The position numbers and the translations under genes were made by a program. Shown here piece after piece: positions 4,088 to 48,538 of a stretch of DNA of 64,000 bases (within the stretch, counting starts at the first letter, position 1; the number at the start of each line of letters is the position of its first letter). The stretch is from Botryococcus braunii (taxonomy: Eukaryota > Chlorophyta > Trebouxiophyceae), in the NCBI GenBank assembly GCA_002005505.1, contig MVGU01001442.1:2501-66500 (forward strand), given 5' to 3'. The notes under the pieces were generated by a model. It was not told the origin of the DNA and searched no databases. It saw only the letters and a program-made list of their open reading frames with translations.

Positions 4088-5377
4088 AGTGAGTCCCCCC
4101 CCCCCCCCCCAAGGCATGGTTTCCTGTCACTGGAGTCTCTTCCGAGTAGCAGCAAATAGGGTGCCGCTGATACATGTGAATGTCTCCTCATTGACCCTCT
4201 GGCATGTCAATGTCCATCCTCGAAAGTGCATCGACTGCTTCAATGAGACATATGTGTTTGCCTTGCATAAAAGGCTCCTGATGAGGTTCCCATACTTTAT
4301 CCCTGCCTACATAGTTTCCTCTTTTATTTCGCGTCTGTGGTTTCTTAAAGGAACTTCCTTTTGCCTCAGCATTCCTCTTTGCCCTGTATCTTGGGTAGCA
4401 GCAGCAGCTGTAGTGCTGGTGATAAGAGTTGTTGGTGCTTTTGTTGGTGGTTGTGTACTTCTTGCTGTTGCCGCCATTGCTGCTTAAGCCGCATTCATTG
4501 CTGCTGCTCCTGCTGTTGCGCCCGGCCGCTCCCCTCGTCTCAGGCAGTTTTCTCAATGTGTCCTGGGTTTTGGCCATGTAGCATGCATAAAAATGTCATG
4601 TGGAACGTGTTGGTTTCCTGGCAGGGAGCGAGGGTGGAGGTGAACGTGAGTGGCAGCAGCAGTAGGAGCGTGAATTGCCAGGCATAAACTCCAACCTAAT
4701 ACAGGCATTATCCCTTAAGGTGCCCACAGAAAGCATGATTCTGGAAGACCAGACCATCGAGAAACGTTGTTCCTAAGCCTTCACCGCTGTCAAGGTGGAG
4801 CCCTTCACTGTCCATCTCAGTACCTCCTCCCCCGTTTTCTCAGCCCTTATGTATTCATCCCCTGTATGTGTTCCTGTTCCCGGCGTGGGTCATGCGGCCA
4901 GCAAGGGGATGCTTTCAGATGCTAGCTCTGTTTTATTCATGCAACAAGACCCTGTTTCATGGTTGCCCCAATTGTAGTGTGGGTGTGTGAGCGCACACGC
5001 GTGTCTGCGTGCGTGTGTGCTCTCGTGTGCAACAAACAAAAAAGCTCTTCAGATTGGCTTGGCTTCCAATGCACATGTATTACATACCTAGTAGGCATTA
5101 GCTACCCAGGTGTGGTAACAAATGGCTGTGTGTGGGGCTTAAGTTGCGCGGTAAGGGGTTCAGGTACTCAGCACAGCTCTGTGCGCTACTTTGGAGAGGG
5201 ACATGCACCGAGTACGGCGATTCTTTCCTCCACAGGTTACTTGGCATCAAAAAACCCTTGCTCACGTACCGCCGAATCTAAATGTGTGGCGCTAGACTCT
5301 CAGTCAAGACTCTCAGTCAGGTATGTTTGAACTGGAGAGGAAGTGTGGGTGCATGCCCGTGTGTGTGCCGGCATGTA
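2601..5377. other. non-coding region with GT microsatellites
   Basis: No exon could be supported. The stretch contains a long G/T-rich imperfect microsatellite (about 3414-3760), a pure GT tract near 4054-4087 and a C run at about 4096-4110. Open frames here (Pro-Thr-His-rich on the minus strand, Cys-rich on the plus strand near 4361-4687) follow from the biased composition. Confidence 0.55.
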
Positions 5378-5383
5378 CCTACA

Positions 5384-5415
<32 letters not shown>

Positions 5416-5851
5416 TGCCCTTGTGACTGTGTGCATGCTTGTGTGTGTGTGTGTGTGTGTGGTGTGTCTGTGTATGTGTGCACGTGTGCGTACGCGTGTG
5501 CATTTGTTTTCGCTGAGTGTGTGCCATTGTGACTGTGTGCATGCTTGTGTGTGTGTGTGTGTGTGTGTGTGTGCCCTTGTGACTGTGTGCATGCTTGTGT
5601 GTGTGTGTGTGTGTCTGTGTATGTGTGCACGCGTGCGTACGCGTGTGCATTTGTTTTCGCTGAGTGTGTGCCATTGTGACTGTGTGCATGCTTGTGTGTG
5701 TGTGTGTGCACGTGTGCGCACGTGTATATGTGTGTGCTGAGTGTGTGCCCTTGTGACTGTGTGCATGCTTGTGTATCTGTGTCTGTGTGTGTGTGCACGT
5801 GTGCGTGCATATGTGTGCGCAGAGTGTGTGCCCTTGTGACTGTGTGCATGC

Positions 5852-5886
<35 letters not shown>

Positions 5887-6725
5887 CGTGGGTGCACGCG
5901 TGCATATGTGTGCGCTGTGTCTGTGCTCTTGTGACTGTTTGCATGCTTATGTGTGTGTCTGCACGTGTGCGTGCGCACGTGCATATGTGTGCGCTGAGTG
6001 TATGCCCTTGTGACTGTGTGCATGCTTGTGTGTGTTTGCATGTGTGCGTGTGCGTGCGCGCGTGTATATGTGTGTGCTGAGTGTGTGCCCTTGTGACTGT
6101 GTGCATGCTTGTGTGTGTGTGTGTGTGTGCACGTGTGCGTGTGCCCTGGTGACTGTTTGCATGCTTATGTGTGCGCTGAGTGTGTGCCCTTGTGACTGTT
6201 TGCATGCTTGTGTGTGTCTGTGTGTGTGTCTGTGTGCACGTGTGCGTGCGCACGTGTATGTGTGCGCTGAGTTTGTGCCCTTGTGACTGTGTGCATGCTT
6301 GTGTGTGTGTGTGTGTGCACGTGTGCGTGTGCGTGCGGGCAATGTGTGTGCGCAGAGTGTGTGCCCTTGTGACTGTGTGCATGCTTGTGTGTGTGTGTGT
6401 GTGTGTGTGTGTGCACGTGTGCGTGCATATGTGTGTGCCCTTGTGACTGTTTGCATGCTTGTGTGTGTCTGTGTATGTGTCTGTGTGCACGTGTGCGTGC
6501 GTGCGTGTATATGTGTGCGCTGAGAATGTGCCATTGTGACTGGGTGCATGCTTGTGTGTGTGTGTGCACGTGTGCGTGCGCGCGTGCATCTGTGTGCTCT
6601 GAGTGTGTGCCCTTGTGACTGTGTGCATGCTTGTGTGTGTGTGTGTGTGTGTGTGTGTTTTTGCGCGCGTGCATACATGTGCGCTGAGTGTGTGCCCTTG
6701 TGACTGTGTGCATGCTTATGTTAGT
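5378..6725. repeat. TG-rich minisatellite with recurring 20-nt motif
   Basis: About 17 copies of a core resembling TGTGACTGTGTGCATGCTTG are spaced 44-108 bp apart. They are joined by TG tracts and a second motif with GTGCACGTGTGCG and GCTGAGTGTGTGCC. This is a complex variable-unit minisatellite built on TG dinucleotides. The CA-rich strand is open in several frames simply because (CA)n has no stop codons. Confidence 0.93.
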
Positions 6726-7001
6726 AAGTGCGTGTGGGCATGCCAAGGGAAATTTTATTGCCCAACTACTCATCCATCAGTTTTAATAAACTTCGTAGCA
6801 TGCATATGGTAAGTACAATGTGCTGTTTTATTATCTATAGTCACATCTTCTGGTTACTTTTGATGCCCTTGTATTGGTGTGTGACTAAGGGCGTGTGTAA
6901 CAATGTACCATATTTTTGGCCTTAGTGTTTGAAATGTGGCCTTGCATGCAACGGCACTCCTAATACTTGGATTGGAAATGCAGGTCCTACATGCGCATAA
7001 G

Positions 7002-8601: not shown

Positions 8602-8733
8602 AATTTCCCACGAACCTTTTGCGTGCCAATCCGCTTACACCATTTGGGTTTACTCCCGGTTGACTGACCTTTATATGGTGGTATTAGGGCTTGGGAACCC
8701 TAAGCTGGTGAGTAATTTTCCACCAGACCATCC
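8602..8733. repeat. 132-bp direct repeat, copy 1
   Basis: Begins AATTTCCCACGAACC and ends CCACCAGACCATCC. It is repeated at 8990-9122 with one extra base. The unit contains TTTATATGGTGG and GTATTAGGGC and has no coding character. Confidence 0.92.
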
Positions 8734-8989
8734 GGGTGGGCGGGCGGGACCAATAAGGTGCGTAGAGCCACCCGTCCCCCGGGTATATCAGTCAAGAAGG
8801 AGGGACCCACCTAATGGTTTCCTCAGTTGCTTGTTTAAATTCTTTCCTTTGGTTTTCTATATCAACTAGCCTGTTTCACCGTTGTTTCACCTGAAATATC
8901 TTTGATTGTCCATTCGTGATCTGGAGTCACATGCTTGTTCGCCCTTAGTCAATCCTTCTGGGGGTTTACTAGCCCTCCCGTGGCAATGG

Positions 8990-9122
8990 AATTTCCCACG
9001 AACCTTTTGCGTGCCAATCCGCTTACACCATTTGGGTTTACTTCCCGGTTGACTGACCTTTATATGGTGGTATTAGGGCTTGGGAACCCTAAGCTGGTGA
9101 GTAATTTTCCACCAGACCATCC
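8990..9122. repeat. 132-bp direct repeat, copy 2
   Basis: Second copy of the block at 8602-8733. The only difference I found is one added base in the TTACTTCCCGG stretch. It lies about 110 bp before the recombinase gene of the DIRS-like element and may mark a terminal region of that element, which is inference. Confidence 0.92.
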
Positions 9123-9486
9123 ACCTTCCCAGTTCCCCCAACTGGCAGCCTGCTGACTAGCTGGCTGTCCTGCAGCATGCAGGATCACCCTTGGCAGCCA
9201 TCATAGGGTCCCCAGGACTCCTAGGCATGGCTGACACCTTGCTCCTGGGCCGCCAAATCCCTTGCCACACTGGCCCCCCCCCCTGAGTGCTACAGCTGCT
9301 GACCAGTACTTCCAGTGGCTCGCCCGGGCCAACTCCATCCAGCTGCTAGCAGTCAAGGGGGCGACCATGCAGAAGAAGATCAGTGCCTTCGATAAATCTG
9401 TGAGTTCATGAGTGACACTGTGAGTTCATGAGTGACACACTGGCCGCCATGCCCTCCAAGGGACTCCTCAAGACATCAAAGTCTAC

Positions 9487-10677
9487 ATGACATTGTGGGC
9501 TACCACCTGCGGTAGATATAAGCATCAAGGCTTGGACCTTGCTGCGCCGGTTAGCATGCGCTGCCTGTTGTCTTTCCTGGCCACTGAGTTTGACCGCTAT
9601 GCCACCACCCATGGCAACTGGGACCCTCTCCGTGGTCAAGGTAAGCTGTCAGTGTCCCCAATACTTGCATCAAGCCTTGCTACATGATGGAAACTGTGTG
9701 CATGGGTTTGACTAAACGTGTAACCATTTTGTAAACGTGTAAGTGATGTACAAATTATATGTTGCAGGCAATCCTGTGCGTTCTTTAGACGTGGCAGAAT
9801 GGGCAACTGGCTACACCCGCTGGCTGGCCCACTTGGGCTATAATCCCCAGTCAGCTCATCCCTGGAGCTTGTCAGACCTGCAGCAAGTCATGGCACGCTT
9901 GGATACTTGCATAAACACCACCACCGGCGTCCCCTTGCTCCGCCTGCACCGAGATGCCTTCACCATGACAATTTTGTGGGAGACCTGCTCACGTGGGGCC
10001 ACTGCTGTCTCCTGGTGCTTGGATGACCTGTGGCTGGCCTCTGGTATGTCCCCACCCACTGTGTCAGCCACTCCTCCGGTCCCCCCCTTGGGTCTCTGCC
10101 AGGTCCTGTCCTCTATCTCTCTTTATGCCCCTTTTTTCCTACATGCTGACATTCTGTCAGCTGGTGCAGGGACGCCTGCTGGCCCCAGCTTGTACCCCTC
10201 CTTGCAGATTCCTCTCGGCGGGGTTGTCTTATTCAAGGCCCTTTAATCAAGCACAACCTGCACCCTGAGGTGATGATCATCACTCGCAAAGATGACCCCC
10301 TCTGCCCAATCCAGCGTCTCCATGCCTTGCTGGTCCAATCTGCCGCACTGGGTCACCCCATCACCCAGTTTCTTTGCCGCCCATTGTCCTCCAATAAGGA
10401 CCATTTCATAGAACGCAGCCTCAGCGTGGCTGCCTTCGAAGAAGACATCGACTTCCATTTTACAGCTGCCAACATCCCCTACCACGCCACCTTGCATGGG
10501 AGCAGGCGAGGCTCCCTCCAGCATCACGACCAGCAAGGTCAGACTCTGGAGGCTTTGGGCCGCCTCGCTCAAATCAAAACGCCGAGCGTGACCAAACGCT
10601 ACATCGACCCAACCCGTCACTTGCCCCCTAAGCTGCCTAAAGGGAAACGTCCTAACAAAAAGGTTCGCCTGACCTGA
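9487..10677 (+). CDS. tyrosine recombinase of the DIRS-like element, intron-containing
   Basis: Encodes a phage-integrase-fold recombinase expected to insert the circular DNA copy of the element. Supported exons are 9487-9640, 9768-10043 and 10208-10677, with introns of 127 and 164 bp (GTAAGC...GTTGCAG, GTATGT...CTTGCAG), both phase 1. The minimal product is about 299 residues. Candidate catalytic residues are Arg in ETCSRGATAVSW (box I), His and Arg in TLHGSRRGSL (box II), and the nucleophile Tyr in VTKRYIDP. A basic Lys/Arg tail follows. The N-terminus is uncertain: an open stretch 9235-9399 (DQYFQWLARANS) may be an earlier exon, but its donor lies in a tandem 20-bp duplication (9399-9438) and gives an awkward phase. 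The stop is 5 bp from the converging RT/RNase H stop. A solo Crypton is less likely because of that fit. Confidence 0.75.
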
Positions 10678-10682
10678 CGTGC

Positions 10683-11306
10683 TCAGCCTGTGCCTGCCCT
10701 TTTACGCTTGGCCCCTCTGACAGAGGCTGGCCTTCTGGGCTTCTCAAATAATATCAAGCTGCAAGTCAGGTGACACTGATAGTCTCCATCCTGCAGCATG
10801 TGAGGTGGGAAACGAGAACCTAACACAAACATGTGCTTCCGGGGGGGAACCGTCGTTTCTGCCCTGACTGGCAAATGGAGCAGCCAAGTCTTCCACTTGG
10901 CTGGTCTATTGCATACTACCAGTATACAGTTTTTTCTTTCTTGTGCTACTTTGGCTATTACCTCCCTGAGGCACTCTCTGGGTGGGAATACCCACAGCAG
11001 AGGTGTGCCATCTGTGGGGTCTAGTAGACTCCAGGGCATGACCAGTGCGTCTGCCCCCATACCCTCTGCAGCAGGGTACCTTGTAAAATATCTTTTCACT
11101 TGGTGGAACTTGTCTACTGTTCCTGCAAAGCAATCCCCTGTGGGAAAACCCCATATGCCTCCTTCTGGCAGACCCGTCTTACATATCTGTGTATATATAC
11201 CCCTATCTAGTGCAAAGTCACCTGCATCATCACACCTAGACAGCAGGTCAGCCACCTGGATTTCAGGAGTGTCCCTTGGCACCCACTGGGCCCTCACTTC
11301 CACACC
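10683..11306 (-). pseudogene. pol: DIRS-like pol, 3' segment (RNase H end and C-terminal domain)
   Basis: Continues the RNase H domain of the segment at 31563-32219, from which GypsyA separates it. It begins in VRAQWVPRD, includes the last RNase H carboxylate in VADLLSR, and then the region WGFPTGDCFAG, GMGADALVMPW, LLWVFPPREC typical of the C-terminal part of DIRS/Ngaro polyproteins as I recall it. It ends with basic KRKRAGTG and TGA at 10683-10685. No methyltransferase motif is recognised. Open throughout here, but the gene as a whole carries upstream lesions. Confidence 0.8.
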
Positions 11307-11546
11307 TGTTAGGGAGGATCCGGCGGAAGAGTTTAGGAAAGAAACGCAAGATAGTTACAAAGGAGCAACCGCCCAGACCACCTTCCACGTCCAAGTCCCT
11401 TTCCCATAATATATGCTATATTCTAGTCTAACTCTAATTAACACACGTAACACACTCCTCCCTACTCCACGGTGCTTCGTCCCATAAGGGCGCGTCACGC
11501 CGCGACAGAGATCCGGCGTTACGACTGTACCGGAATCCCTCTAACA
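11307..11546 (-). repeat. GypsyA 3' LTR
   Basis: 240 bp, TGTTAGAG...CCTAACA on the element strand. The same sequence is at 31323-31562, with no difference seen. Flanked on the left by ACACC. Confidence 0.96.
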
Positions 11547-31322: not shown

Positions 31323-31562
31323 TGTTAGGGAGGATCCGGCGGAAGAGTTTAGGAAAGAAACGCAAGATAGTTACAAAGGAGCAACCGCCCAGACCACCTT
31401 CCACGTCCAAGTCCCTTTCCCATAATATATGCTATATTCTAGTCTAACTCTAATTAACACACGTAACACACTCCTCCCTACTCCACGGTGCTTCGTCCCA
31501 TAAGGGCGCGTCACGCCGCGACAGAGATCCGGCGTTACGACTGTACCGGAATCCCTCTAACA
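31323..31562 (-). repeat. GypsyA 5' LTR
   Basis: 240 bp, same as 11307-11546. TSD ACACC follows at 31563-31567. Confidence 0.96.
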
Positions 31563-32219
31563 ACACCTGCCTCAGCTGCAGCCTCAAACATCAGCCTTAG
31601 CTCTTTGAGGGTGTGAGTCTTACCATTCATGCTATTCACATTAGACACTGCACCCTGATTGTCACAGAATACCAACAGCACCGCCCCCCGCATCTTGTCC
31701 GTGTTGGCTCTAATGCATGTCCTGACCAGTAGGCATATATTCTTCACCTCCCTGTGACAAGAAGACAGTGTCCCCTTGCTCATGAGCTCCTGTTCCTCTT
31801 CTGTGAAACTCTCCTGCATGGGTTGCAGCAGCAGCTCTTCTGAGAATCCCCCATAACCCCTAGCAGATGCATCCCCATAGCACACGAAGACTGGTCCCTC
31901 CTGCCTCCATGGCTTGCCCTTCTGCCTTTCTAACGCCTCCACCCAATACAGCAAATCTTCTTCCGTTAACGCTGCTAACTCCTCTGTCAAGCTCTCCCCC
32001 CATTCCCGGAGCTCTTCCATGGCTTGAAACAACCTCCTAATGTACAAGGGGGTAGCCGTACTGCAGGGGCCACACTCACTAACATGCCTGCCAACCTTGC
32101 CATGTCCCTCTTGGTACCCCCAGCTGTCCTAACCTTGCCTATTTCCTCCAAAATGAAATCTGCTTTGTCCTGGGGCACGTGGAAAGCTTGTTCCTCTAAG
32201 TCCACTATCAAGCCAAGAT
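31563..32219 (-). pseudogene. pol: DIRS-like pol, middle segment (RT thumb and RNase H)
   Basis: Lies between GypsyB1 and GypsyA. The first part, GLIVDLEEQAFHVPQDK and RLAGMLVSVAPAVRLPP, is the RT connection typical of DIRS-type elements. A one-base frameshift around 32047-32053 then moves to the frame with LYIRRLFQAMEELREW. The RNase H begins here, with Asp in VCYGDASARGYGG, Glu in HREVKNICLL and Asp in VFCDNQGAVSNV. The last carboxylate is in the segment at 10683-11306. Confidence 0.85.
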
Positions 32220-32696
32220 TGTAATAACTCGCGGAATTTATAAGGAAGTAAGGCAGGAAGGGAGCAAGGAACGAGGCGCGACACGAGGTCCGTCAGTTGG
32301 GGCAAGCAAGCGTTTACAAGAACCACCCCACCACACAGCTTACCCTTGTGGTTTCTCCAGTTCTGTCCTCTCGTGTTAATCTACTCGGCACGCGGGTTCC
32401 TAGCCAAGGGACGCCTATGATTCGAACTCGGCCCATGTACGACTTAACTCCCTCTATCCTTCGTGAGAGCCCTAGATCGTCCACTCGCTGGCGTGCTAAC
32501 GGTGACAACTATTGTCATCTAACACACGCAATGACGGAGTGCCAACTATGCATGGCGTAAGCAACCATCACCAACGGAAGGTGCTACTCTCGTTCGAGCG
32601 GCTAACCACGTGGCTCCCACGGGCGTGCAGTATGGCGCCAAAGGGCGTCTCCGGCAAATGTCCCGAAATGCTCGGAAATCCTCGCATTCCGTTACA
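32220..32696 (-). repeat. GypsyB1 3' LTR
   Basis: 477 bp, TGTAACGGAATGCG...GAGTTATTACA on the element strand. Polypurine tract TAAGGGGGGATAA lies at 32697-32709. Confidence 0.95.
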
Positions 32697-33749
32697 TTAT
32701 CCCCCCCTTAGTCCTTTGCATGTCCTCATGCAAACCCACTCGAGGATTTTCAAGAAGAACAAGAACAACCAGAGAAACCCGTAAACTGGACGGCCCAAAC
32801 CTCCAACTGCCGTCTGACCACTGCCGAATTGGTGGTTCATGGGGTCCCCACTTCCAATGTATAATATCTCCAAGTAAACACTTCCTTGCCATTTATTTTA
32901 TTTTTATAGCTTTTCTAGGACACTAGGTAGACTTGCGTCTAATCTTATTCGAAGAACAAACATGAAGAAATAAACGTTCAAACATGAAAAACAAGTGTCC
33001 CATTTCACAAGTCCAAGAGAACATAAAAATCTAATCCAAAAACATACAACACAAAAGAATGAATAAAGTGCTGAAGTCCAAAAAGTAGGGAACTTCCATG
33101 GAGAAGTTCCATGCTCCCAATGAGTCCCGTTCCCGTAATGGATGATCCCAAGTCAACATACTGTACAAATCCGCATAAGGTACATATTCCAGTTCATGCC
33201 GAACGAGTCGGGTTGCGTTGGCTCTGAACCATGATCCAAAAGGAAAAAACAAACAAACAAACAAACAAAGAAACAAAGTCCAACGTTCCCAAAAGTCCCA
33301 ACAACACAAACGTTCAAGGTCCAAGATTTCAAGAGAGTCCAAGTCCCCCCTATTGACATAGACTGTCCAAGACCTGCCAGTCACATAGAAGAATCCCCAA
33401 TCCCTCTCCAATTTCCAAGCCCCTTCTAGTCACATAGTCCACCAATCACCAGAAAAGTGCCCAGGATCCACAACTGATTGCTTGTGCTAGCAGGTGTACT
33501 CCCCCCCCCCCCCCCCCACCTATCCAAAGCGAGCAGACTCCGGGCTGCAACATGCCATGGTGTGTGACATCTGTCCACCCACACCGGAGTGGGCGACCCA
33601 CTCCCAATCCCATCCCGAGGGGGTGCACACATTTGCAATCCTACCACCGGCTTGTCTGTGCAGATCCTTGCGTACCCGACAAGGACTCCCTCCTAAAGAG
33701 AGCAAAGACAAGGTAACCGACCGGAGGAGCGGGCAGCAGGGGAAAGGCC
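32697..33749 (-). other. GypsyB1 3' untranslated region
   Basis: About 1.05 kb without coding sequence, conserved in GypsyB2 (51355-52386). Includes an AAAC microsatellite near 33245-33272 and a C homopolymer near 33506-33523, both longer here than in GypsyB2. The start holds the polypurine tract. Confidence 0.8.
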
Positions 33750-34444
33750 TCAAACGGCCGTCTCGCCCCACTTGGGCGGGCCCAACTCCTGGTGACGGTG
33801 GTAGGCGTTGATGGTGTCCTTTGCGTGGTCGAACATGTCCAAGGGCTCCCAGTCGTCTCCGACGTCGTAACCTGACCACAGTACCCAGTACTGGTAGGCT
33901 GGGGTACCGTCCGGGAAGTGGAGGGCCCGGTTCCCCTTCATCAAGGGACGGTGACCGAGGATGCCGTCCACGCCGTACTCGGCATTCTCCGTGCCGTCAT
34001 CGCCCTTGACCATGCGTGGTCCTGGCTGGTATTTGTAAATGCTGAGGCGGTCTGGGTTACGTGGCCCCTTGTAGAGGTCCACATATTCCACGTTTATGCG
34101 TGGGTGAAACTTCAGGGCGGCGGGGACGTCCAGCTCAACAGAGCTGGGATGGACGGCAGTGACCCGGAAGGGTCCAATCCGGCGCCTGGCAAGCTTTATG
34201 TACTTCTGCGACGTCAGGGCGGCTGGGAACTTCGTCCGAAGGAGAACAAGGTCCCCCTTCTTATAGATAACAGCCCGGCGGTGGCGGTTCGCCTGGGCCG
34301 CCTGCCGCTCCTGAGCTGCAGCCAAAAACTTCCGTGCAAGGGTAAGGGAGTCTTGCATCTTCCGGAGGAAAAGATCTGCCCGATCTGCTTTACCCCCCTC
34401 CATGTGTCCCATAGCAAATGGAATGTTTGGGTCCTGTCCATATG
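33750..34444 (-). pseudogene. pol: GypsyB1 pol, integrase C-terminus and chromodomain
   Basis: Open part after Copia4. It begins at the integrase C-terminal region (ADLFLRKMQDSLTLARKFL; GDLVLLRTKFPAALTSQKY; RRRIGPFRV) and ends in a chromodomain with a long insert (YGVDGILGHR...YQYWVLWSGYDVGDDWEPLDMFDHAKD). Joins in frame to the integrase core at 42032 after removing Copia4 and one copy of ATATG. Confidence 0.9.
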
Positions 34445-35345
34445 TTTAGCATGATGGCATCATCAAAACAGAATTTGTAGAATTGGAATTGGTATAAAAA
34501 TCCCTGTGACTCACACTCTTCTGAGTAAGTGAACTGTGCCCAAGTGAAGCTTGTATAAGTGGACGAAACACGACCAAGCAAACGGGACAGGAGCTTGATA
34601 AGGGATACTCAAGACTGTTACAATAACAACTAATCTAATGATGTTGCAATTACCTGTGACTCACACTCTTCTGAGTAAGTGAACTGTGCCCAAGTGAAGC
34701 TTGTATAAGTGGACGAAACACGACCAAGCAAACGGGACAGGAGCTTGATAAGGGATACTCAAGACTGACTGATCCCTTTGGGCACTTCCTATTTATACTA
34801 ACTAAGAAGACTATTCATTTATTAGCCTCCTGACAGGTTTGCAACTCCAGATCTTAAAAGAGTACGGGCACGATCAAGTTTGCATGCCTCAGTACTATGC
34901 ACTGGAATTTCAATGTACCTCATGACTCGACATGGTCGTCGATGAATAGTGCGAATCTCGGTCGATGCTAATCTCGAATCTAAGTGACTCGGAACTTTAA
35001 CTCACGACCGATACGAGGCTCGGATCAAGCACCAAGAGCCGCAAGGCTAAAGTCTCACGATCGATGAGATCCGGGCCGAGTGTACCTTACTCGAAACTTG
35101 GCAGAAAACAGGCCGATTTTGTACCATGGCCCCTATAAAACGCTATGAGTGTCTTTTATCATTTAAGTACCATACAGTACGAACACACCCAAGTGAGATA
35201 TGACTGTACCTTATTGTTTATATGTATTATAAGTATTATAAAGCCTTTAAATGATAGATGTGGCTCACAAACATGCTAATATGAAATGACCCAACATGTT
35301 GCACAAATACCTAAGGTATACATGTTAGTGTCCATTTTTCCAACA
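34445..35345 (-). repeat. Copia4 3' LTR
   Basis: 901 bp. On the element strand it begins TGTTGGAAAAATGG and ends CATGCTAAA, so the 3' end is AA in place of the usual CA in both copies. A 115-bp block is duplicated (34503-34617 and 34653-34767). Polypurine tract GAGGGGAGG at 35346-35354. Confidence 0.94.
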
Positions 35346-35404
35346 CCTCCCCTCATGTGTAGGGAGAAACATCTCTAAAATTGTTTGAAAATTAGGTCAC
35401 AAAT

Positions 35405-38400
35405 TTATTTAAGACCTGCCATTGCTCTAAGCTTGGCAAAGGTGACCTTTGAAAGTACCTTGGTGAAGAAATCAGCAATATTCTCACTGGTAGCCACATA
35501 CTTTGGCTCAATTGCTCCATTCTCCACCTCATCTCTGACCCTGTGGTACCTTACAGCAATGTGTTTAGTCCTGGATGAGATGGGAATCCCCTTCACATTA
35601 GCAAGGGCCCCAGTATTGTCAGTGTAAACCACAATACTACCAGGATTTTCACCAAAGTCAGTAATCAACTTGGTGAACCACAGTGCCTCCTGAACTCCAG
35701 TGCACAAGGAGATAAACTCAGCTTCAACAGTAGACAAAGCAACTATTGGTTGCAACTTGCTACCCCATGAAACTGCAGCTGACCCAGACATGAAAACAAA
35801 ACCAGAGGTGGACTTCCTACCATCCAAATCCCCTGCATAGTCTGAGTCAACAAAGGCAATAAAACCTTTGTCACTCTTCTCCCACACAAGCCCCAAATTC
35901 TTAGTACTAGCAAGATATTTTAAGACATGCATGCCAGCACTGAGATGTGTATTTGAAGGGGCATTTGCAAAACGTGCAAGGACACCAGTAGCATATGACA
36001 GATCAGGCCTAATTGTGTTGGCCAAATATAAAATGCCCCCCACAAGTTCCCTGTACCTGTTGTCTTTAGGCAAGGGATCCCCTGAATTCTTCTGCAACTT
36101 GAATGAATTATCCAGGGGTGTAGCCTTGGGGTTGCAGCCTGTCATGCCAAAGCTGTCCAAAATGTCAGTGATTAGCTTCTCATTTGATAACTTCACTGAC
36201 TTTAGACTACCATCTAAATACCTTTCAAAGGTAATCTGCATGCCCAGAAAGTGTCGGGCCTCCCCTAAATCCTTCACTGCAAACTTACTTGCAAGGAGAG
36301 ACTTCACTTCAGAGATACATTTGGGGTCCTGAGAAACAATGAGAATATCATCCACATATAAAAGTAGATAAACAGTCTCAGAACTATCTCTCTGCAGTAT
36401 AAATAAAGATGGGTCTGCATCAGAAATGACAAAACCAGCAGATTTTAGAAAACTGCTGATAGTGACATACCAGGCCCTAGGAGCCTGTTTAAGCCCATAC
36501 AAGGCTTTGTGCAACCTGCAGACAGTGTTAGGCCCACCAATGTGAAACCCCTCTGGCTGCTGAATGAAGACCTTCTCTTCAAGGTCTCCATGCAAAAATG
36601 CAGTGCTCACATCCATTTGATGGACCTGCATGTTTCTCTCAACTGCTTTAGACAACACATATCTTAGAGTTGAGTGCTTGGAAACTGGTGCATACACTTC
36701 AGTGTAATCAACACCATAAATTTGTTTAAAGCCTTTGGCCACAAGCCTAGCCTTAAACCTCTCAATCTCTCCAGTTTCAGAAAGTTTTACTTTGTAAACC
36801 CACTTAACTGGAAGAGCCTTCTTCTTGGTTTTGTCATCAACCACAACATATGACCAAGTGCCTAGTGCTTTTAATGAATTCATCTCATCTTGCATTGCAC
36901 TGACCCACTTGTCACTTTCAGGTGAATTTATTGCATCTATATACTTTGCTGGCTCAATTATCAGTGTGTCCTTTTGCACTTGCACATAACCACTGACAAT
37001 TTCAACTGAATTTGTTTCATTTTGGAGTACTGTGTTCTTAACTCTGTCAGGATATCTACCCCCAAAGAGACCAGCAGGTGAGTGTGAGATCCCAGCACCT
37101 AGAAAATCAAACTCAACAGGCTCAAGTTGGACATCAGGAGCCTCATTAACTATACCTTGTTGGAGGACCACTTGTGGAACATCCTGAACGGGACGCGGGT
37201 CCGAGCCATGGGATTCAGGATCTGCAGTGTCCTGATTTTCCCCAAGGTTAGTGTTTTCTTGACTTGTAAACTTAGCCCTTTCAAGGTTTAGATGATCAAA
37301 CCTTATGACACTTGGATCAGTGCCCAAAGGGTCTAAAGAAACAGGAGACAAGTCTTCAGAAGTTTCATGCACATCTTCCCCAATGATTGCAGTTTCAGAA
37401 TCTTCAGGAGAATCCTCTTCATCATTCACCACATCAAGGAGATCAGGCATTTCATCATCATCAGACAAGGCCTCCTCAAAATTGACAAATTGTCTTGCAC
37501 ACACTGTGACTTTGGAATCCATGAGGACACGATAATTCTTGCTGTGCCCATCATAGCCCAAGAAAATACCCTCCTTACTGACAGGGCTAAATTTACCATC
37601 CCTTTTGGACTTTTCAATCATGACATGACACTTGCTCCCAAAAACACGTAAGTGACTGACATCAGGAACAGTGCCAAACCACATCTCAAATGGGGTCTTA
37701 TCATGATTTGAAACTGCAGACAAATTTCTAACATAGTTTGCAGTTAAGAGAGAGTCACCCCAATATTCTGGAGGTAGGCTCGAGGCAGTCAGCATGGCTC
37801 TGGCTTTCTCCTGCAGAGTCCTGTTCAGCCTCTCAATTTTCCCATTTTGTTGATGTGCATATGGTGCAGTCTTTTGGTGGACTGCACCATTTTTCCTGCA
37901 GAACTTTTCTAAACCAGAAAATTCAGTACCAGTGTCGGTCCTGATAAACTTAACCTTGCACTCGTGCTGGGTCTGCCACTCAGTCAATAAATTAACTGCC
38001 TCTCTTGATGCATCTGCCTTTGACTTGAGTAGAATGGTTGCTGACATCTCAGAAAACTCATCTAAGACATTAAGTGCATATTTCTCATCATCATAAGTTT
38101 CTGGTGAGACTGGACCCATAAGGTCCATATGCACAACTTCTAATTTACTAGTGCAAGCAGTGCCTGTTGGTTTAAAAGGCTGCACAGTTTGTTTCCCATG
38201 CAAGCAGGCACTGCAGACACCTCTCGTACCAATAGAACTTGAGAAATCAGAAGAGGGGAGTTTCATTCCCTTGACCATTTTTCCCTTCATCATTCTTACC
38301 ATGTAGGCTGGAGACAAGTGCCCCAGCCTCTGATGCCACAGGTCTGCATCCCTGTGAAGCACCTGAACATTGCATGCCTCCACAAACTTAGTTTCTGGAT

Positions 38401-40771
38401 GAAAAGAAACATGCTTGTCTGGTAGAGCTAAATCCACCAGCCACTGATAGGGGAAAGCATGCTCAGCATTTCCCAAATGGTACCCATTAGAATCTGTGAG
38501 ATAACACTCTATCCCCATGATATTAACATTAATACCATCTAAATATGCCTTGCCCACTGATAGAAGATACTTCTTGCTAGAGGGAACATGCTTGACATTA
38601 TGCAAGAACAAGGAACTGCCAGACTCGAGGAACACTTGCATGGAACCTTCTCCTACAATTTCCTCAGACTTGCCATTTGCCACAATCAAACGTTGTGGCA
38701 CATCAAACTTGACATAATTTATCATGTTTTCACTTGAAGGTGAAATGTGATCAGTTGACCCTGAATCTATAAGCCAAGCAGGAAGAGAAGGTTGGGAGAT
38801 TACTGTATCCCTTTGCACACAATTGGTTTGTGCCCTCCTCTCCTGTGCTGCAAGCTTAGGACACGTTGCTTTGATGTGTCCTTGATTCCTGCAGTACTGG
38901 CAAATTAGTACAGGCCTTCCCTGCTGTTGAAAAGCAGGTTGCCCTGTCCCTGAATTTTCACGGTTAGTATTTTTAGGCACTTCTGCCTGGTGAGCACCTG
39001 GACCAGCCCCACCTGAACCACCTTGCCTGCCTGCAGGCTGACCACCCCCACCTTGATTCCTATAAGGTTTGGGATTTGAGGTGTTTGGAGGATTATATGG
39101 CTTCTTTGCTTGAAGATCCATATATGTTAACTCAAGAACATGCTGGAGTTGGTGCACATTTGGATAGTTGTTGCACACAGACAGCTGTAAACGTCTATCT
39201 ACCTCATACTCTTCAGTGAGGCCTTCAATGATCATAGAGCACTGGCAAACCTCAGAACACTGCTCTCCTAGTGATTTGAGGTTGTTTGCAATTTTTCTGC
39301 ACCTTAACACGTAGTCAGATGGTTTTTCACCTGGCTTCATGGCAAATAACTTTTGCTCCCTGTGGAGGCTCGTCAGCCTAGCTGCTGCTCTAGCGTTAAA
39401 CACCTGCAGCAGCTTATTCCACATATGGTAAGCACTTGTCAAGTCAGTAATCTGAACAGAATACTGCTCAGTACATGCTTGAGTGATGATTGTTTGGGCC
39501 TTGAAATCATCATAAGCTCCCTGATAATCATCATGAACACAGTAATTGACATTCATTTCCCACAACATAGCATACACTTGCTTTGTCCATGTCAACCAAT
39601 TGGTATCATTCAACTTGACTAACTCTATCTTTGGAGTTAACTTCTGATGAGACGAGAACGAAGGGCCAGTGGTTGGATTTATATTGGGCAGACCAGGAAT
39701 ACCTACGTTTGGAAATTGACCTTGTCCAACACTATATGGTGGCCCCTGACTATAAGGAGGACCACCCCAACCACCACCACCTGGTCCACCAGGACCGCCT
39801 GGACCACCAGGACCGCCTGGTCCTCCAGGACCACCAGGACCACCCCCACCAAAGCCACCAGGAACATTCCCACCAGAGCCCGGATAAACAGGGTATTGCG
39901 GGTAGTTGCCTGAGACTGGTGGAGGATGCCAAATCGAGCTTGCTCCTCCAGGGGGACCCCCACTGTATGGTGGCCCACCTCCAGGAGGACCACTGCCTGA
40001 GCTGTATGGGTAGCCACCACCAGGAGGGCCTCCAGCTGGAATTGCTGAAGCTGACGTTGACACTCCAAAGTTGGATGGTACCTGCACACTAGCTGGCTGC
40101 ACCAAGGTTGGATTAGAAATTTGGTTCAGCGTTGAGGCAGGTAGTGAAATGGGGATCATGCCCCCAGTAGCCAGTGGTAAATAAACAGTTGCCTGTGCAC
40201 TAGCTACTGATGTTGCTGGAACCATTGCGCCACTAGTAATGACTGGAACGCTAGCTGGCTGGACTGTCACAGCAGGATATTGCGAAACGGGTACTTGTAA
40301 AGGACCACTGGTAAGTGTCCTTGACCCTGAAACTGCAGACTGTGAAGGTCTGCGCAAAACCCTAGGTGCGCTTGAAACAGGCACAGGATTAATCCTGACT
40401 GCTCTTCTGACACTGCTAGGATCTAAAGGAAGGTTGGAAGGCATACCACTAGGAGGAGAGATGCCTGAGCTTACAGCAGGAGCAGCTACAGCTAGAGGTT
40501 GACCAGCAGGATCAGCAGGAAGAGACTCAGAGTGATCATAATCCCCGTATAGAACCTCATCACTTACCTCCCCTGCGTGGCGCCCCTCAGCTTCACTGTC
40601 CTCCGTTGAGCTGTTGGCACCTGCACATGCACTAGAGGTGTAGCCCCTTGAGTAAGATTGTTCAAAGCTCTCATTATTGTAAACAGTTGAGGGATCATCC
40701 TCAATCATAATTGGTACTTCATATGATTCTTCAGGATTGGCATAGGGTGGCACAGTATATGTACCACTCAT
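35405..40771 (-). CDS. gag-pol: Copia4 gag-pol polyprotein
   Basis: Single ORF of 1,788 residues from ATG 40769-40771 (MSGTYTVPPYANPEE). An unusual N-terminal extension of about 350 residues is rich in Pro, Ser and Gly and includes a collagen-like GPGGPGG run. Gag follows (LNDTNWLTWTKQVYAML; LHREQKLFAMKPGEKPSDYVLRC) with zinc knuckle CQYCRNQGHIKATC. Next are protease WLIDSGSTDHIS, the pre-integrase finger (LWHQRLGHLSPAY...CSACLHGKQT) and integrase core (Asp in VHMDLMGP, Asp in IRTDTGTEF, Glu in NGKIERLNRTLQEKARAML). Reverse transcriptase (HQMDVSTAFLHGDLEEKVF, LLYVDDILIVS) and RNase H (VDSDYAGD, VYTDNTGA, SENIADFFTKVL) complete it. Ends TAA. All catalytic motifs present. Confidence 0.96.
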   Translation of the reverse strand: MSGTYTVPPYANPEESYEVPIMIEDDPSTVYNNESFEQSYSRGYTSSACAGANSSTEDSEAEGRHAGEVSDEVLYGDYDHSESLPADPAGQPLAVAAPAVSSGISPPSGMPSNLPLDPSSVRRAVRINPVPVSSAPRVLRRPSQSAVSGSRTLTSGPLQVPVSQYPAVTVQPASVPVITSGAMVPATSVASAQATVYLPLATGGMIPISLPASTLNQISNPTLVQPASVQVPSNFGVSTSASAIPAGGPPGGGYPYSSGSGPPGGGPPYSGGPPGGASSIWHPPPVSGNYPQYPVYPGSGGNVPGGFGGGGPGGPGGPGGPGGPGGPGGPGGGGWGGPPYSQGPPYSVGQGQFPNVGIPGLPNINPTTGPSFSSHQKLTPKIELVKLNDTNWLTWTKQVYAMLWEMNVNYCVHDDYQGAYDDFKAQTIITQACTEQYSVQITDLTSAYHMWNKLLQVFNARAAARLTSLHREQKLFAMKPGEKPSDYVLRCRKIANNLKSLGEQCSEVCQCSMIIEGLTEEYEVDRRLQLSVCNNYPNVHQLQHVLELTYMDLQAKKPYNPPNTSNPKPYRNQGGGGQPAGRQGGSGGAGPGAHQAEVPKNTNRENSGTGQPAFQQQGRPVLICQYCRNQGHIKATCPKLAAQERRAQTNCVQRDTVISQPSLPAWLIDSGSTDHISPSSENMINYVKFDVPQRLIVANGKSEEIVGEGSMQVFLESGSSLFLHNVKHVPSSKKYLLSVGKAYLDGINVNIMGIECYLTDSNGYHLGNAEHAFPYQWLVDLALPDKHVSFHPETKFVEACNVQVLHRDADLWHQRLGHLSPAYMVRMMKGKMVKGMKLPSSDFSSSIGTRGVCSACLHGKQTVQPFKPTGTACTSKLEVVHMDLMGPVSPETYDDEKYALNVLDEFSEMSATILLKSKADASREAVNLLTEWQTQHECKVKFIRTDTGTEFSGLEKFCRKNGAVHQKTAPYAHQQNGKIERLNRTLQEKARAMLTASSLPPEYWGDSLLTANYVRNLSAVSNHDKTPFEMWFGTVPDVSHLRVFGSKCHVMIEKSKRDGKFSPVSKEGIFLGYDGHSKNYRVLMDSKVTVCARQFVNFEEALSDDDEMPDLLDVVNDEEDSPEDSETAIIGEDVHETSEDLSPVSLDPLGTDPSVIRFDHLNLERAKFTSQENTNLGENQDTADPESHGSDPRPVQDVPQVVLQQGIVNEAPDVQLEPVEFDFLGAGISHSPAGLFGGRYPDRVKNTVLQNETNSVEIVSGYVQVQKDTLIIEPAKYIDAINSPESDKWVSAMQDEMNSLKALGTWSYVVVDDKTKKKALPVKWVYKVKLSETGEIERFKARLVAKGFKQIYGVDYTEVYAPVSKHSTLRYVLSKAVERNMQVHQMDVSTAFLHGDLEEKVFIQQPEGFHIGGPNTVCRLHKALYGLKQAPRAWYVTISSFLKSAGFVISDADPSLFILQRDSSETVYLLLYVDDILIVSQDPKCISEVKSLLASKFAVKDLGEARHFLGMQITFERYLDGSLKSVKLSNEKLITDILDSFGMTGCNPKATPLDNSFKLQKNSGDPLPKDNRYRELVGGILYLANTIRPDLSYATGVLARFANAPSNTHLSAGMHVLKYLASTKNLGLVWEKSDKGFIAFVDSDYAGDLDGRKSTSGFVFMSGSAAVSWGSKLQPIVALSTVEAEFISLCTGVQEALWFTKLITDFGENPGSIVVYTDNTGALANVKGIPISSRTKHIAVRYHRVRDEVENGAIEPKYVATSENIADFFTKVLSKVTFAKLRAMAGLK

Positions 40772-41125
40772 TGCATGAAAATAACGTAGTCAGCACAAAC
40801 TCTAACAAGTAGAGCTCTCCAGCGACCACCCCAGCCTTCCCAAAGGAAAGCTGCCTTCACCAATAACCAACTTCTCTCCCACTGCCTTAACCACAAGGGC
40901 TTAGGCAATCGAGAAGTCCAACCAGAGTAACCCACCAGAAGACAACAAGAGTCCTTCTACCTGACACGGTGGTCTGCGTAGACCCCGTGCTGGCTTAGGT
41001 GCTCTTTAGTCTTTAAAAGAGTGCTATGAAAAGCAGAACGTAGAAAGCTGCGAGGCTTCTTTACGTAGAAAGATCCCGTGCGCCGGGAGACGATAATACC
41101 ATAAGCGATTTAATCGCCGATACCA
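40772..41125 (-). other. Copia4 leader and primer-binding site
   Basis: 354-bp untranslated leader. The PBS TGGTATCGGCGATTAAA (minus strand, 41109-41125) directly abuts the 5' LTR and shares its first 12 bases with GypsyA and GypsyB1. No separate upstream ORF is seen. Confidence 0.8.
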
Positions 41126-42026
41126 TTTAGCATGATGGCATCATCAAAACAGAATTTGTAGAATTGGAATTGGTATAAAAATCCCTGTGACTCACACTCT
41201 TCTGAGTAAGTGAACTGTGCCCAAGTGAAGCTTGTATAAGTGGACGAAACACGACCAAGCAAACGGGACAGGAGCTTGATAAGGGATACTCAAGACTGTT
41301 ACAATAACAACTAATCTAATGATGTTGCAATTACCTGTGACTCACACTCTTCTGAGTAAGTGAACTGTGCCCAAGTGAAGCTTGTATAAGTGGACGAAAC
41401 ACGACCAAGCAAACGGGACAGGAGCTTGATAAGGGATACTCAAGACTGACTGATCCCTTTGGGCACTTCCTATTTATACTAACTAAGAAGACTATTCATT
41501 TATTAGCCTCCTGACAGGTTTGCAACTCCAGATCTTAAAAGAGTACGGGCACGATCAAGTTTGCATGCCTGAGTACTATGCACTGGAATTTCAATGTACC
41601 TCATGACTCGACATGGTCGTCGATGAATAGTGCGAATCTCGGTCGATGCTAATCTCGAATCTAAGTGACTCGGAACTTTAACTCACGACCGATACGAGGC
41701 TCGGATCAAGCACCAAGAGCCGCAAGGCTAAAGTCTCACGATCGATGAGATCCGGGCCGAGTGTACCTTACTCGAAACTTGGCAGAAAACAGGCCGATTT
41801 TGTACCATGGCCCCTATAAAACGCTATGAGTGTCTTTTATCATTTAAGTACCATACAGTACGAACACACCCAAGTGAGATATGACTGTACCTTATTGTTT
41901 ATATGTATTATAAGTATTATAAAGCCTTTAAATGATAGATGTGGCTCACAAACATGCTAATATGAAATGACCCAACATGTTGCACAAATACCTAAGGTAT
42001 ACATGTTAGTGTCCATTTTTCTAACA
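41126..42026 (-). repeat. Copia4 5' LTR
   Basis: 901 bp, near-identical to 34445-35345 and with the same internal 115-bp duplication. TSD ATATG follows at 42027-42031. Confidence 0.95.
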
Positions 42027-42984
42027 ATATGTCAAGCGGAACGGTGTGGTGTTGATCGAGGCTTGCCAGGTATTGTTATAGGCAAACTCTGCAACAGCCA
42101 GATGGTTTTCCCATTCTTTAGGCTTATCCCAAACATAATGTTTGAGGTAGTCCTCAAGAATCCTGTTAATCCGTTCCGTTTGTCCATCAGATTGTGGGTG
42201 ATAGGCTGTAGACCGTGCAGGTTTGCAGCCTGTTAAATTTAGGAGTATATCCATAAATTTACTCACAAACTTAGGATCCCTATCCGACACAAGTTCCTCT
42301 GGAAATCCGTGGTATCTCCAGACTTTATCCCTTAGCAAAACTGCTACATCATATGAGTCAGCTTTTGTGGTGGTGGGCACAAAGTGAGCACACTTACTTA
42401 ACCGGTCCACCACAACCCATATGGCATCATTCCCGTTTGCAATCCGTGGCAACCCCGTAATCATCCAAATAGACAACGACAAATCCCTCCCGAATGAAAT
42501 CATGGAAGATTTCATTCATCAGCCGCTGAAAAGTGGCCGGAGCATTCGTTAAACCAAAGGGGAGCACCAGAAACTCGTACAACCCAAATGGTGTTCTAAA
42601 TGCTGTCATTGGGATATCTTCTTCTTTAAGCCGGACCTGATGGTATCCGCTCTATAAGTCCAGGCTTGAGAAGACCTTTGCTCCTTTGAGCCTATCAAGC
42701 AAATCATCAATCCGGGGCAAGGGGTACCTATCCGGAATGGTAATCTGGTTGACAGCTCTATAATCAATTACCATCCTATAAGTTCCTTCCTTCTTTTTAA
42801 CAAAAAGAACAGGAGATGCATAAGGTGAGTGACTGGGCCGGATGTGCCTTAATGCGAGAAGCTCATCCACTTTTTTAGTACACTCTTCCATTTCTAGAGA
42901 AGATAAACGATAAGCAGGCTTATTAGGAGGTACAGAGCCAGGTTGTATCCTGATGGTGTGATACACCTGTCTATGCGGTGGCAA
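42027..42984 (-). pseudogene. pol: GypsyB1 pol, RT start fused by deletion to integrase
   Basis: The RT begins at [15 protein letters not shown] and [16 protein letters not shown]. It is cut by TAG at 42652-42654 (TTG in GypsyB2), reopens at [21 protein letters not shown] and reaches VVYLDD near 42462. There it jumps directly to integrase sequence [19 protein letters not shown]. The rest of RT, RNase H and the zinc finger are gone. Integrase Asp in VSDRDPKF and Glu in GQTERINRI are retained up to the Copia4 insertion. Confidence 0.9.
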
Positions 42985-44099
42985 TCATGGCAAACCTTGA
43001 GGAAACAAATCACTGTACTCCCTAAGGAGCACCCCCAATTGTTCCGGTTTGCCCTTCAACACCTCCTCCAGTCCCAAGGATCCCGTGAGCTTACCCGACG
43101 ACGACATTGGCTTCTCCTCCTCCCCCTCCACTAGGGGTTCCGAGAATAATTCCGGGACCGGCCCGCCCTGGGTACCCGGTCCCCTGGAGTTGGTTGATGA
43201 GGTGCGTGATTCGTCGTCGGAGGGATTTAGCTCGTTTCCCTCCTGGGATGATTCCCCCTCCTGCTCATCCCATGCATACTCTTCAGGTCTCATGACAACA
43301 TTCAACAGACAAAGTCTTCATTGATCTACTTTGTTCTTCCCCTTCCTCACTATGTTCATACCCCATTGCAACGTGCAGGGTAAGACTTTCCTGTGAGGGT
43401 CCAACGTTACCCACTTCCCTTGATGTTTTATTTGTGCTTTCCCAACCCCAACACTGACTGTGGCTTCCCTTGGAGACATCCAGTCTTGACCCAAAATGAG
43501 ATCCACTCCCTCCATGATAGAATCACATACAAAGAAAGTATGGCGGGTGACTACCGAAGGGGTGAACCTAACACTAAGGTCAACCTTCCCCTTGGTTTTA
43601 GACAAGGTCCCATCTGCAAGGACTACTGTTGTTGCTTCCTTGTGATACCTAAGCCCTTGTAAACTTTGCCTCGGACAAAGGAATGGGTAGCCCCAGTGTC
43701 CATGAGTGCACGAAAGTCCATGCCTCGAACAGTAACGGCAAAAGTCAGGTTGAGTGGTGAGAGATTTCCCACATGCCCTACATGACAAGATGGTTGTGGC
43801 ATGACACATGCAAGCACAAATGCAAAAGGAAATATTCCTGCCTTGCCCGAGAACATAAATTGTTCTCCCCTACATCCCCGAGCAAGAACTTTTAGTTTGG
43901 CCTTTGTCCTGTACTCTAAGAAAAACCTCCTGCTTTTCCAGACTTTTTGACTAATAACAAAGCAGGCACCAAGGCTGGGATCATGTTTTCTCTTTGCAAA
44001 GAAATCATGCAAGCAAGCCTCTGCACAATTTTTCTTAGGTACTACCAACTCAAAGGGTTCAGAGAGTGAAGACAAATAGGCCAAACAATGGGGATCCAT
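42985..44099 (-). pseudogene. GypsyB1 protease ORF, frameshifted
   Basis: Starts MDPHCLAYLSSLSEPFE 15 bases after the gag stop and in the same frame. Carries the pre-protease motif PSLGACFVISQK and active site ALMDTGATHSFVRG. A one-base loss near 43660-43670 relative to GypsyB2 shifts the frame; the remainder (VVLADGTLSKTKGK, CDSIMEGVDLILGQDW) is in another frame. An acidic region then leads to the RT, with TGA at 42985-42987 where GypsyB2 has GGA. Confidence 0.88.
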
Positions 44100-44111
44100 G
44101 ACCCTTGCGAG

Positions 44112-45373
44112 TCAAGTTTTGGGTTTCCGCTTCCCTTCCCCCTTCCACTTCCCTCTTCCCTTTCCTTTCCCTTGCCAATTACCTTGCCCTCCTTGAGGTG
44201 GTGGAAGCCCTCCTTGCACTGGTGCCACCACTGGTGGGGCCTGTGGTGCAGAGGGAAAGTAACCCGGTTGAAAAACTGGTGGTTGGAACCCTCCCGCTTT
44301 AGCTTTAGCAGCCAACCACTCCCTTTTCAACTGACATTGCCATGCTTCATGGCCCAACTGTTTGCAAAAGTAACACTCCCTATTAGCGGGGATGACCTTC
44401 CGAGAGTCCAACTTTCCTCCCTTCCCTGGTGCACCTGGGGGTCCTCCAACAGCTCCCCAGAAGGGTGGTGACCCTTGAACTTCCTCTGGGATATGAGCTG
44501 CACCAAGATTGGTGTGGAAGTTTGATAGTGTCCTCCTCTTGGGGGGACCTCCCTGTGCATCCCCATGGGCACTTTTGAAACCACCTTCATGACCACAAAG
44601 GTGCACAAGTCATCCAGGTCTGTGAAGGGTTTCCCTGTCCCGGGGTTGATGGTACTGGCCAATCTTAACTGCACATTAAGACCCTTCATGAACAAGTGCA
44701 ACTTATCCTGCTCTACCATTTCATATTCCACCTCAATATCCGAAAGCAAAGCAACAAATCTTTCAATGTACCTCTCCACACTTTCATTCCCTTGGTATAC
44801 TTTGTCAAGCTTTTGTCTTGCTATTGCTACTGTGTCAGTGGCATCATATCTTTTGGACACAAAAGCTTTAAAGTCTTCCCACTCTATGGCATCTTCCTCT
44901 CCTCCCTCTTTGTCCCACTTACGCACAAAAGCATCCCACACTTTAAGTGGCCTTTCCTCTAAGTGTTGAACTGCAAGAGCAACCCACTTAGCATTAGGCA
45001 CGTTAGTGAGTTTAGCATATGATGCCAATTTCCGTGCAAAAAATATGAAACTCCCTCTTTTTCCATTAAACAGAGAAGGAGGGGCAGCACGCACTTGCAC
45101 CGGTTTGAGGATCGGTGCTTGGGCCTCAGCCTGCCGAGCCTCCAACTTTTGTTCGACTAACGTGTTAATGTATTCTTCAATTTCCTCCTTTGACAAGGGG
45201 CGTTTCTTCCTTCTGCCTTCCGATCCCTCGGTTGTAGGGGCGATCGGGTTCATGGAATCGACGTCCTCCTCTAACAAATCCGTAACCTCGAAGCCTTCCC
45301 GCAAAGAACCTTCCAAAAGGCTTCGGTCGTCCTCAGAAAGGTTTTTAAACCTATCTGATGTCACCGAGCTCAT
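44112..45373 (-). pseudogene. gag: GypsyB1 gag
   Basis: Starts MSSVTSDRFKNLSEDD. The gag domain (LFNGKRGSFIFFARKLASY; LDKVYQGNESVERYIERF; FMKGLNVQLRLAS) runs to about 44590, where the frame changes. The C-terminal part has zinc knuckle CYFCKQLGHEAWQC and a Lys/Gly-rich tail ending KRKPKT and TGA at 44112-44114. The frame change may be a lesion or programmed; the matching part of GypsyB2 is outside the window. Confidence 0.85.
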
Positions 45374-45460
45374 CTACGAGGGGCATCCCAAAGTTAGATC
45401 CTTGCATCGGCATCTGCCAACTTCCAACAACTTGATCGAAAACCCCAAAGGATTGATAAC

Positions 45461-45477
45461 GGCTTTCGCCGATACCA
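45461..45477 (-). other. GypsyB1 primer-binding site
   Basis: TGGTATCGGCGAAAGCC on the minus strand, two bases after the 5' LTR. Shares TGGTATCGGCGA with GypsyA and Copia4. Confidence 0.8.
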
Positions 45478-45479
45478 AA

Positions 45480-45957
45480 TGTAATAACTCAGCGGAATTT
45501 ATAAGGAAGTAAGGCAGGAAGGGAGCAAGGAACGAGGCGCGACACGAGGTCCGTCACTTGGGGCAAGCAAGCGTTTACAAGAACCACCCCACCACACAGC
45601 TTACCCTTGTGGTTTCTCCAGTTCTGTCCTCTCGTGTTAATCTACTCGGCACGCAGGTTCCTAGCCAAGGGACGCCTATGATTCGAACTCGGCCCATGTA
45701 CGACTTATGTCCCTCTATCCTTCGTGAGAGCCCTAGATCGTCCACTCGCTGGCGTGCTAACGGTGACAACTATTGTCATCAAACACACGCAATGACGGAG
45801 TGCCAACTATGCATGGCGTAAGCAACCATCACCGACGGAAGGTGCTACTCTCGTTCGAGCGGCTAACCACGTGGCTCCCACGGGCGTGCAGTATGGCGCC
45901 AAAGGGCGTCTCCCGCAAATGTCCCGAAATGCTCGGAAATCCTCGCATTCCGTTACA
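45480..45957 (-). repeat. GypsyB1 5' LTR
   Basis: 478 bp. Differs from the 3' LTR by one inserted base (ACTCAGCGG against ACTCGCGG) and several substitutions, so the insertion is older than GypsyA or Copia4. Confidence 0.95.
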
Positions 45958-47594: not shown

Positions 47595-47800
47595 ATTTCT
47601 CTCCTTAGCCTTGCATCCTTGCACCCATTGCCACCCTTCCTTATCCGTGTGTATCCGGGAGGTCTCCCCACCGACTCTCTCTCACGATCGTCCACCGTCC
47701 GGACCCCACTCGCTTGCCTCCATGCCCACTCCACCACCAACTCAATATGTTTTCCAAATACAATAAGCCCAAGTATCCATCTGGTCGCAAGCAAGTCATG

Positions 47801-48449
<649 letters not shown>

Positions 48450-48538
48450 AACCTAGCAGACTTCTGAAACTTGTTATAGTGGCAAAGGAAGAGAGAGAGA
48501 GACGAGACACCAGTCAGGTTAGAGCATTCAGCGGAATC

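Follow-up and report, generated by a model that had tools for sequence, protein, structure and literature searches.

How does a retrotransposon keep introns in its genes through rounds of copying? The question is raised by a 64,000-nucleotide stretch of the Botryococcus braunii genome (assembly GCA_002005505.1, contig MVGU01001442.1, positions 2,501 to 66,500 of the forward strand; hereafter the window), in which a putative tyrosine recombinase (YR) gene with two introns runs head-on into a gene for reverse transcriptase (RT) and RNase H. A preliminary description of the interval 9235-11306 assigned both genes to a DIRS-like element and proposed that the inverted orientation of YR is what allows the introns, which would be antisense in a genomic RNA of RT sense. 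Judged by its sequence, the window contains one broken copy of a PAT-like retrotransposon (DIRS order) of about 8.2 kb with an inverted YR. In our assessment the element is very probably recently active and autonomous in B. braunii and copied from an unspliced template, and gene orientation is very probably not the cause of its introns.

The genome was searched at the DNA level with the preliminary interval (2,072 bases), and 40 of 132 candidate matches were scored (92 unscored). Thirty-seven of the 40 hold the whole YR-RT query and are the aligned copies counted below; the other three lack only its 5' part. No RT without a neighboring YR occurs among the 40 scored matches. Five copies have both ends (C52, C227, C121, C32 and C366; 8,157-8,321 bp), with left flanks that are all different. 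Read in the direction of RT, these copies consist of repeat A, gag (three exons), a single open reading frame (ORF) for RT, RNase H and a methyltransferase (MT)-like region, YR (three exons, opposite strand), the internal repeats B'A' and repeat B. In the direction of the window the order is B (129 bp), A' (239 bp), B' (129 bp), YR reading rightward, RT and gag reading leftward, and A (239 bp). The split direct repeats A - B'A' - B, complete with both ends and the internal copy in all five, are those of PAT-like elements, and the RT and RNase H are those of the DIRS order; the earlier assignment to the DIRS group is borne out on both counts. RT is full length in four of the five full copies. 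The family appears to have moved recently, because the median divergence of the YR region from the nearest other copy is only 0.07% (37 copies). The YR protein also has full-length matches, up to 97%, among the Joint Genome Institute (JGI) gene models of B. braunii (Botrbrau1).

A second subfamily (contig C227, minus strand; L015 and L018) shares 75-82% DNA identity with the element. The one copy examined comes close to a recombinase standing alone with its own ends: its YR exons are intact and it has split repeats, but the neighboring RT is decayed and nothing matches gag. On this sequence the second subfamily may be non-autonomous and yet retain a working recombinase.

The YR gene of the window copy is made up as follows.
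9227 to 9640, plus strand: YR exon 1, with its ATG at 9227; frameshifted and longer than in other copies.
9641 to 9767, plus strand: YR intron 1, phase 1; GT/AG in 37/37 copies.
9768 to 10043, plus strand: YR exon 2; encodes R206 (391-residue protein), the candidate catalytic arginine; 276 nt in 37/37 copies.
10044 to 10169, plus strand: YR intron 2, phase 1; GT/AG in 37/37 copies and the same junction in the JGI models.
10170 to 10677, plus strand: YR exon 3, with H332, R335, Y367 and the stop codon; one-nucleotide deletion in the window copy.
10678 to 10682, no strand: 5-bp spacer between the two stop codons.

The YR stop codon (TGA, 10675-10677) and the RT stop codon (TGA on the minus strand, 10683-10685) face each other across the spacer CGTGC. 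The string TGACGTGCTCA, which comprises both stop codons and the spacer, is identical in all 37 aligned copies, and the convergence reported for the window is therefore an unchanged feature of these copies.

The two phase-1 introns described earlier for YR are conserved, but the second acceptor is at 10169, not at 10207. The site at 10207 was rejected, as 21 of the 37 copies have no AG there; the frame that had been read from it follows a one-nucleotide deletion found in the window copy only. Coding starts at the ATG at 9227 rather than at 9235, where the preliminary interval began. From codon 4, exon 1 measures 405 nt in the window copy vs. 382 nt in 34 of 37 copies, and exon 3 measures 509 nt in 36 of 37. 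Intron 2 ranges from 117 to 176 nt across the copies, mostly owing to a poly-T tract, while exon 2 is constant in length. The spliced frame is open from codon 4 to the stop in 35 of 37 copies, being broken in the window copy and in C232, and variable columns fall 31/18/79 on codon positions 1/2/3. The junctions predicted here recur in the JGI models P0001 (31 member sequences) and P0002 (18). Among relatives 53-55% identical to P0001, P0009 has extra residues at the intron 1 site and P0008 at the intron 2 site, which would fit introns read through at conserved positions.

Introns are also present on the other strand. On the RT strand, gag consists of three exons encoding 450 amino acids, separated by introns of about 1.14 and 0.85 kb. 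The window retains its 3' portion.
47151 to 47567, minus strand: gag exon 3, the last exon, from the exon model.
47568 to 48474, minus strand: 3' part of gag intron 2, with a (GA)n microsatellite; a donor that matches is found outside the window, farther along the contig (C451:75876).

Eighteen gag regions were examined, and 16 were counted after C199 (no gag exon in the fetched stretch) and C36 (exon 1 absent) were dropped. All four splice sites are GT/AG in the 16 copies; over all 18 regions the sites are present in 16 at donor 1 and in 17 at each of the other three. The intron 2 acceptor was set from JGI model P0012 and is AG in 16/16. Both junctions are found in this model (Bobra.0161s0045, 19 member sequences), and the JGI gene numbered one below it, 0044, is RT. 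The spliced frame is open in 13 of 16 copies, in C121 only through offsetting length changes. Variable columns by codon position are 31/25/63 in exons 1 and 2, whereas the first 900 nt of intron 1 give 41/51/51; most gaps fall in the introns. The C-terminal end of Gag is a C-x8-C-x8-C-x3-H stretch with a Pfam CCCH match at E 0.023, below the cut-off. The intron microsatellites, poly-T in YR intron 2 and GA in gag intron 2, differ strongly in length among otherwise near-identical copies.

The genome (176 Mb) was searched with patterns across the spliced junctions, allowing two mismatches for YR intron 1 and three for the other three introns. The patterns found no genome site for YR introns 1 and 2 or gag introns 1 and 2; their unspliced counterparts numbered 49 (YR intron 1), 54 (gag donor 1) and 57 (gag donor 2). 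Whichever strand serves as the RNA, two of the four introns lie in it in the orientation that can be spliced, and copies must therefore arise from unspliced RNA or bypass RNA. An antisense template shields one pair of introns, never both, so at least one pair requires unspliced copying. The element is thus probably copied from unspliced genetic material, as far as its sequence tells.

A bypass of RNA would mean that the element spreads mainly as DNA, with YR excising or copying circles in the manner of Cryptons, introns that never meet splicing and an RT that is little used. The failure of the patterns to find a spliced junction on either strand agrees with this, as does the second-subfamily copy (n=1) in which YR is intact, RT decayed and gag without a match. 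We nevertheless find spread as DNA improbable: RT is full length in most full copies, gag must at least be under selection because it is open in 13 of 16 copies with a codon-position bias, and conservative excision alone does not raise copy number.

The orientation hypothesis with which this locus was first described fares no better. It holds that the genomic RNA is RT-sense, that the YR introns are shielded in it as antisense sequence and that orientation permits introns. The inversion of YR and the conservation of its introns are what it expects, and a similar antisense-template idea appears in the passages of a paper on Penelope elements (PMC3846280). As a sufficient cause of intron retention, shielding was rejected on account of the two larger gag introns on the RT strand, for which the patterns likewise found no spliced junction; a YR-sense RNA would only shift the problem to YR. 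The claim that inverted orientation permits introns is not supported, and we think shielding very unlikely. Some other cause may lie behind the orientation, which does not account for the retention of the introns.

That the gag introns are spacers in a chain of separate ORFs is highly improbable: their large size and an exon 2 piece that has no family match above the cut-off suit such a chain, but the consensus donors and AG acceptors in 16/16 copies, the in-phase joining with 13 of 16 frames open, a pattern of variation that is of coding type in the exons but not in intron 1, and a 450-residue JGI model with the same junctions all speak for splicing.

The following points weigh against introns on both strands kept by unspliced copying. 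Substitution divergence hardly sets introns apart from exons: in YR, intron 1 stands at 0.026 and intron 2 at 0.073 vs. 0.019, 0.027 and 0.019 in the exons, and in gag the introns stand at 0.041 and 0.045 vs. 0.034, 0.025 and 0.033. The splice models of the four introns are predictions from sequence and gene models. The junction patterns were built on the element's own family, and diverged subfamilies would escape them.

Splicing and copying could be combined as follows. Gag would be made from spliced RT-sense RNA and YR from spliced RNA of the opposite sense, while the copy that reenters the genome would be made from unspliced, full-length RNA; the unspliced template would have to be kept whichever strand is reverse-transcribed. 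The internal B'A' copy would serve to restore the element ends by way of a circle, which YR would insert without target duplication. The full proposal, a DIRS-order element with spliceosomal introns in opposing genes on both strands that depends on splicing for Gag and YR and never copies spliced RNA, is tentative, and we rate its chances at slightly under even.

Repeats on which the restoration of the ends would depend lie on the YR side of the window copy.
8605 to 8733, no strand: terminal repeat B, 129 bp, the element end by alignment to full copies; the flanks beyond it differ in the five.
8749 to 8986, no strand: repeat A (239 bp), internal copy; full copies carry the terminal one at their far end.
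8993 to 9122, no strand: internal copy of repeat B, 99.2% identical to terminal B with one gap.

The internal B and the internal A form a split direct repeat, which is a circle-junction copy. In the five full copies, A differs from its own A' at 0, 1, 2, 5 and 6 positions, and 1-15 differences separate the copies. This similarity would agree with ends rebuilt from the internal copy, but weakly, because C366 (one of the five) does not follow the pattern and has an A' closer to the A of other copies than to its own, a point that counts against end templating. The flanks of the five full copies have no target duplication by eye; one paralogous site is consistent with insertion, without duplication, at a short ATTT that is shared, but this paralogue has other differences. 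In RT sense, 5/5 copies have TGTAA, a poly(A) signal of Chlamydomonas, at a distance of 35 bp from the B end, but about eight occurrences per strand are expected by chance.

The proposed insertion step assumes that YR is a tyrosine recombinase, which is likely rather than proven and rests on catalytic residues in register and on the structure of the element. R206 (within a box of the expected kind), H332, R335 and Y367 are the candidate catalytic residues. In the top hhalign alignment of the C-terminal region, H332-x-x-R335 and Y367 coincide, ungapped, with the H-x-x-R and Y whose H, R and Y are catalytic in XerD and Cre. A Foldseek search with the YR model returned Cre or Cre-derived Tre at ranks 1-18 of 145 (best E 1.3e-3, probability 0.97). 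Other comparisons tell against the assignment. No Foldseek match reached E <= 0.001, TM scores were 0.27 or less, and the AlphaFold2 model itself is poor (mean pLDDT 46). Pfam gave no match for P0001 and one among 11 relatives at E 0.16, no PHROG matched YR, and the sequence-search matches of YR in the PDB included no recombinase. The hhalign score against four E. coli recombinases was within controls, and that against nine bacterial and phage recombinases was 16.3, compared with 9.4-21.2 for 30 column shuffles, six of which scored higher.

The RT gene is interrupted in the window, where the element is left in three pieces (8605-11308, 31563-32219 and 45959-48474).
10683 to 11306, minus strand: 3' part of the RT ORF, with the end of RNase H and the MT-like C-terminal region.
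31562 to 32217, minus strand: middle part of the RT ORF, residues 392-610, in two frames in the window copy.
45958 to 47133, minus strand: 5' part of the RT ORF, residues 1-392, starting at 47133.

The preliminary interval stopped at a Ty3/gypsy insertion (11303-31562), beyond which the element resumes in its second and third pieces. This insertion has 244-bp long terminal repeats (LTRs; 99.6% identical) and, by eye, the 5-bp flanking repeat ACACC. Inside it are two direct-repeat pairs, each 100% identical (15872-16602/28902-29632 and 18879-19582/24616-25319), and the ORFs within these pairs look copia-type by eye, indicating nested insertions of which the inner ones are very young. A second LTR element, likewise located within RT (about 32213-45957; repeats of about 485 bp, 97.9%) contains the repeat pair 34445-35345/41126-42026 (99.8%) around an ORF of 1,794 amino acids (35405-40789) that is copia-type by eye. 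Outside the element, the minus strand of 5300-6776 has long open frames (up to 471 amino acids) of short Thr/His/Ala-rich repeats that look like a repeat array, not a gene.

The Dam domain was found in two of 33 relatives, the better scoring 28.0 vs. the Pfam cut-off of 28.1. The Dam-aligned region is present in the element (residues 636-719 of P0013) without a Pfam match of its own; the rows of the structural comparison spanned residues 82-633 and barely included the MT-like part. Viral contigs scanned with YR and RT yielded no relatives. Four short contigs (L067-L070) filed under bacterial metagenome-assembled genomes encode DIRS-like RTs (24-30% identity) and are uninformative on YR orientation; they are probably eukaryotic contamination.

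An inverted YR has been published for Kangaroo, as the preliminary description stated, and for a PAT form of Daphnia pulex (PMC4157794, in the passages cited here and below). Kangaroo (PAT group, Volvox carteri) resembles the B. braunii element in its green algal host, RT, MT or MT-like region, inverted YR and split direct repeats. Its internal repeats lie between MT and YR, whereas those of the element separate the 5' end of YR from the terminal repeat. Kangaroo has no reported zinc finger (PMC4157794), and the CCCH match of Gag is below the cut-off. In form 1G of D. pulex, YR is likewise inverted and the internal repeats adjoin the 3' terminal repeat, which is the order of the element; the host differs, and the word "intron" is absent from the main text of the paper (PMC4157794). 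The repeat order of the element is that of the Daphnia form, not that of Kangaroo. PAT-like DIRS elements are reported, in the text consulted, from Chlamydomonas and its relatives (PMC8226300), and the B. braunii genome paper sorts transposable elements into LTR, long interspersed, short interspersed and DNA elements, with "DIRS" absent from its main text (PMC11286282). The inverted YR is an already known layout, which introns on both strands extend. No DIRS element with introns on both strands was found in the literature covered (titles, abstract openings and passages; the original description of Kangaroo was outside this scope).

Penelope-like elements also keep introns through copying, although they integrate with a GIY-YIG endonuclease and are unrelated in structure. 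Whether their template is antisense or unspliced sense RNA is treated as open in the passages of PMC3846280, where the dispersal of intron-containing genes is said to set Penelope elements apart from all other types of retrotransposon. An element with introns on both strands separates these two models. A young family with many near-identical copies in a culturable alga makes the debated question of intron keeping testable with strand-specific RNA and cDNA. If the proposal for the B. braunii element is true, intron retention would rest on a sorted unspliced template, for example if nascent RNA were reverse-transcribed in the nucleus, and the dispersal of introns would no longer be a peculiarity of Penelope elements.
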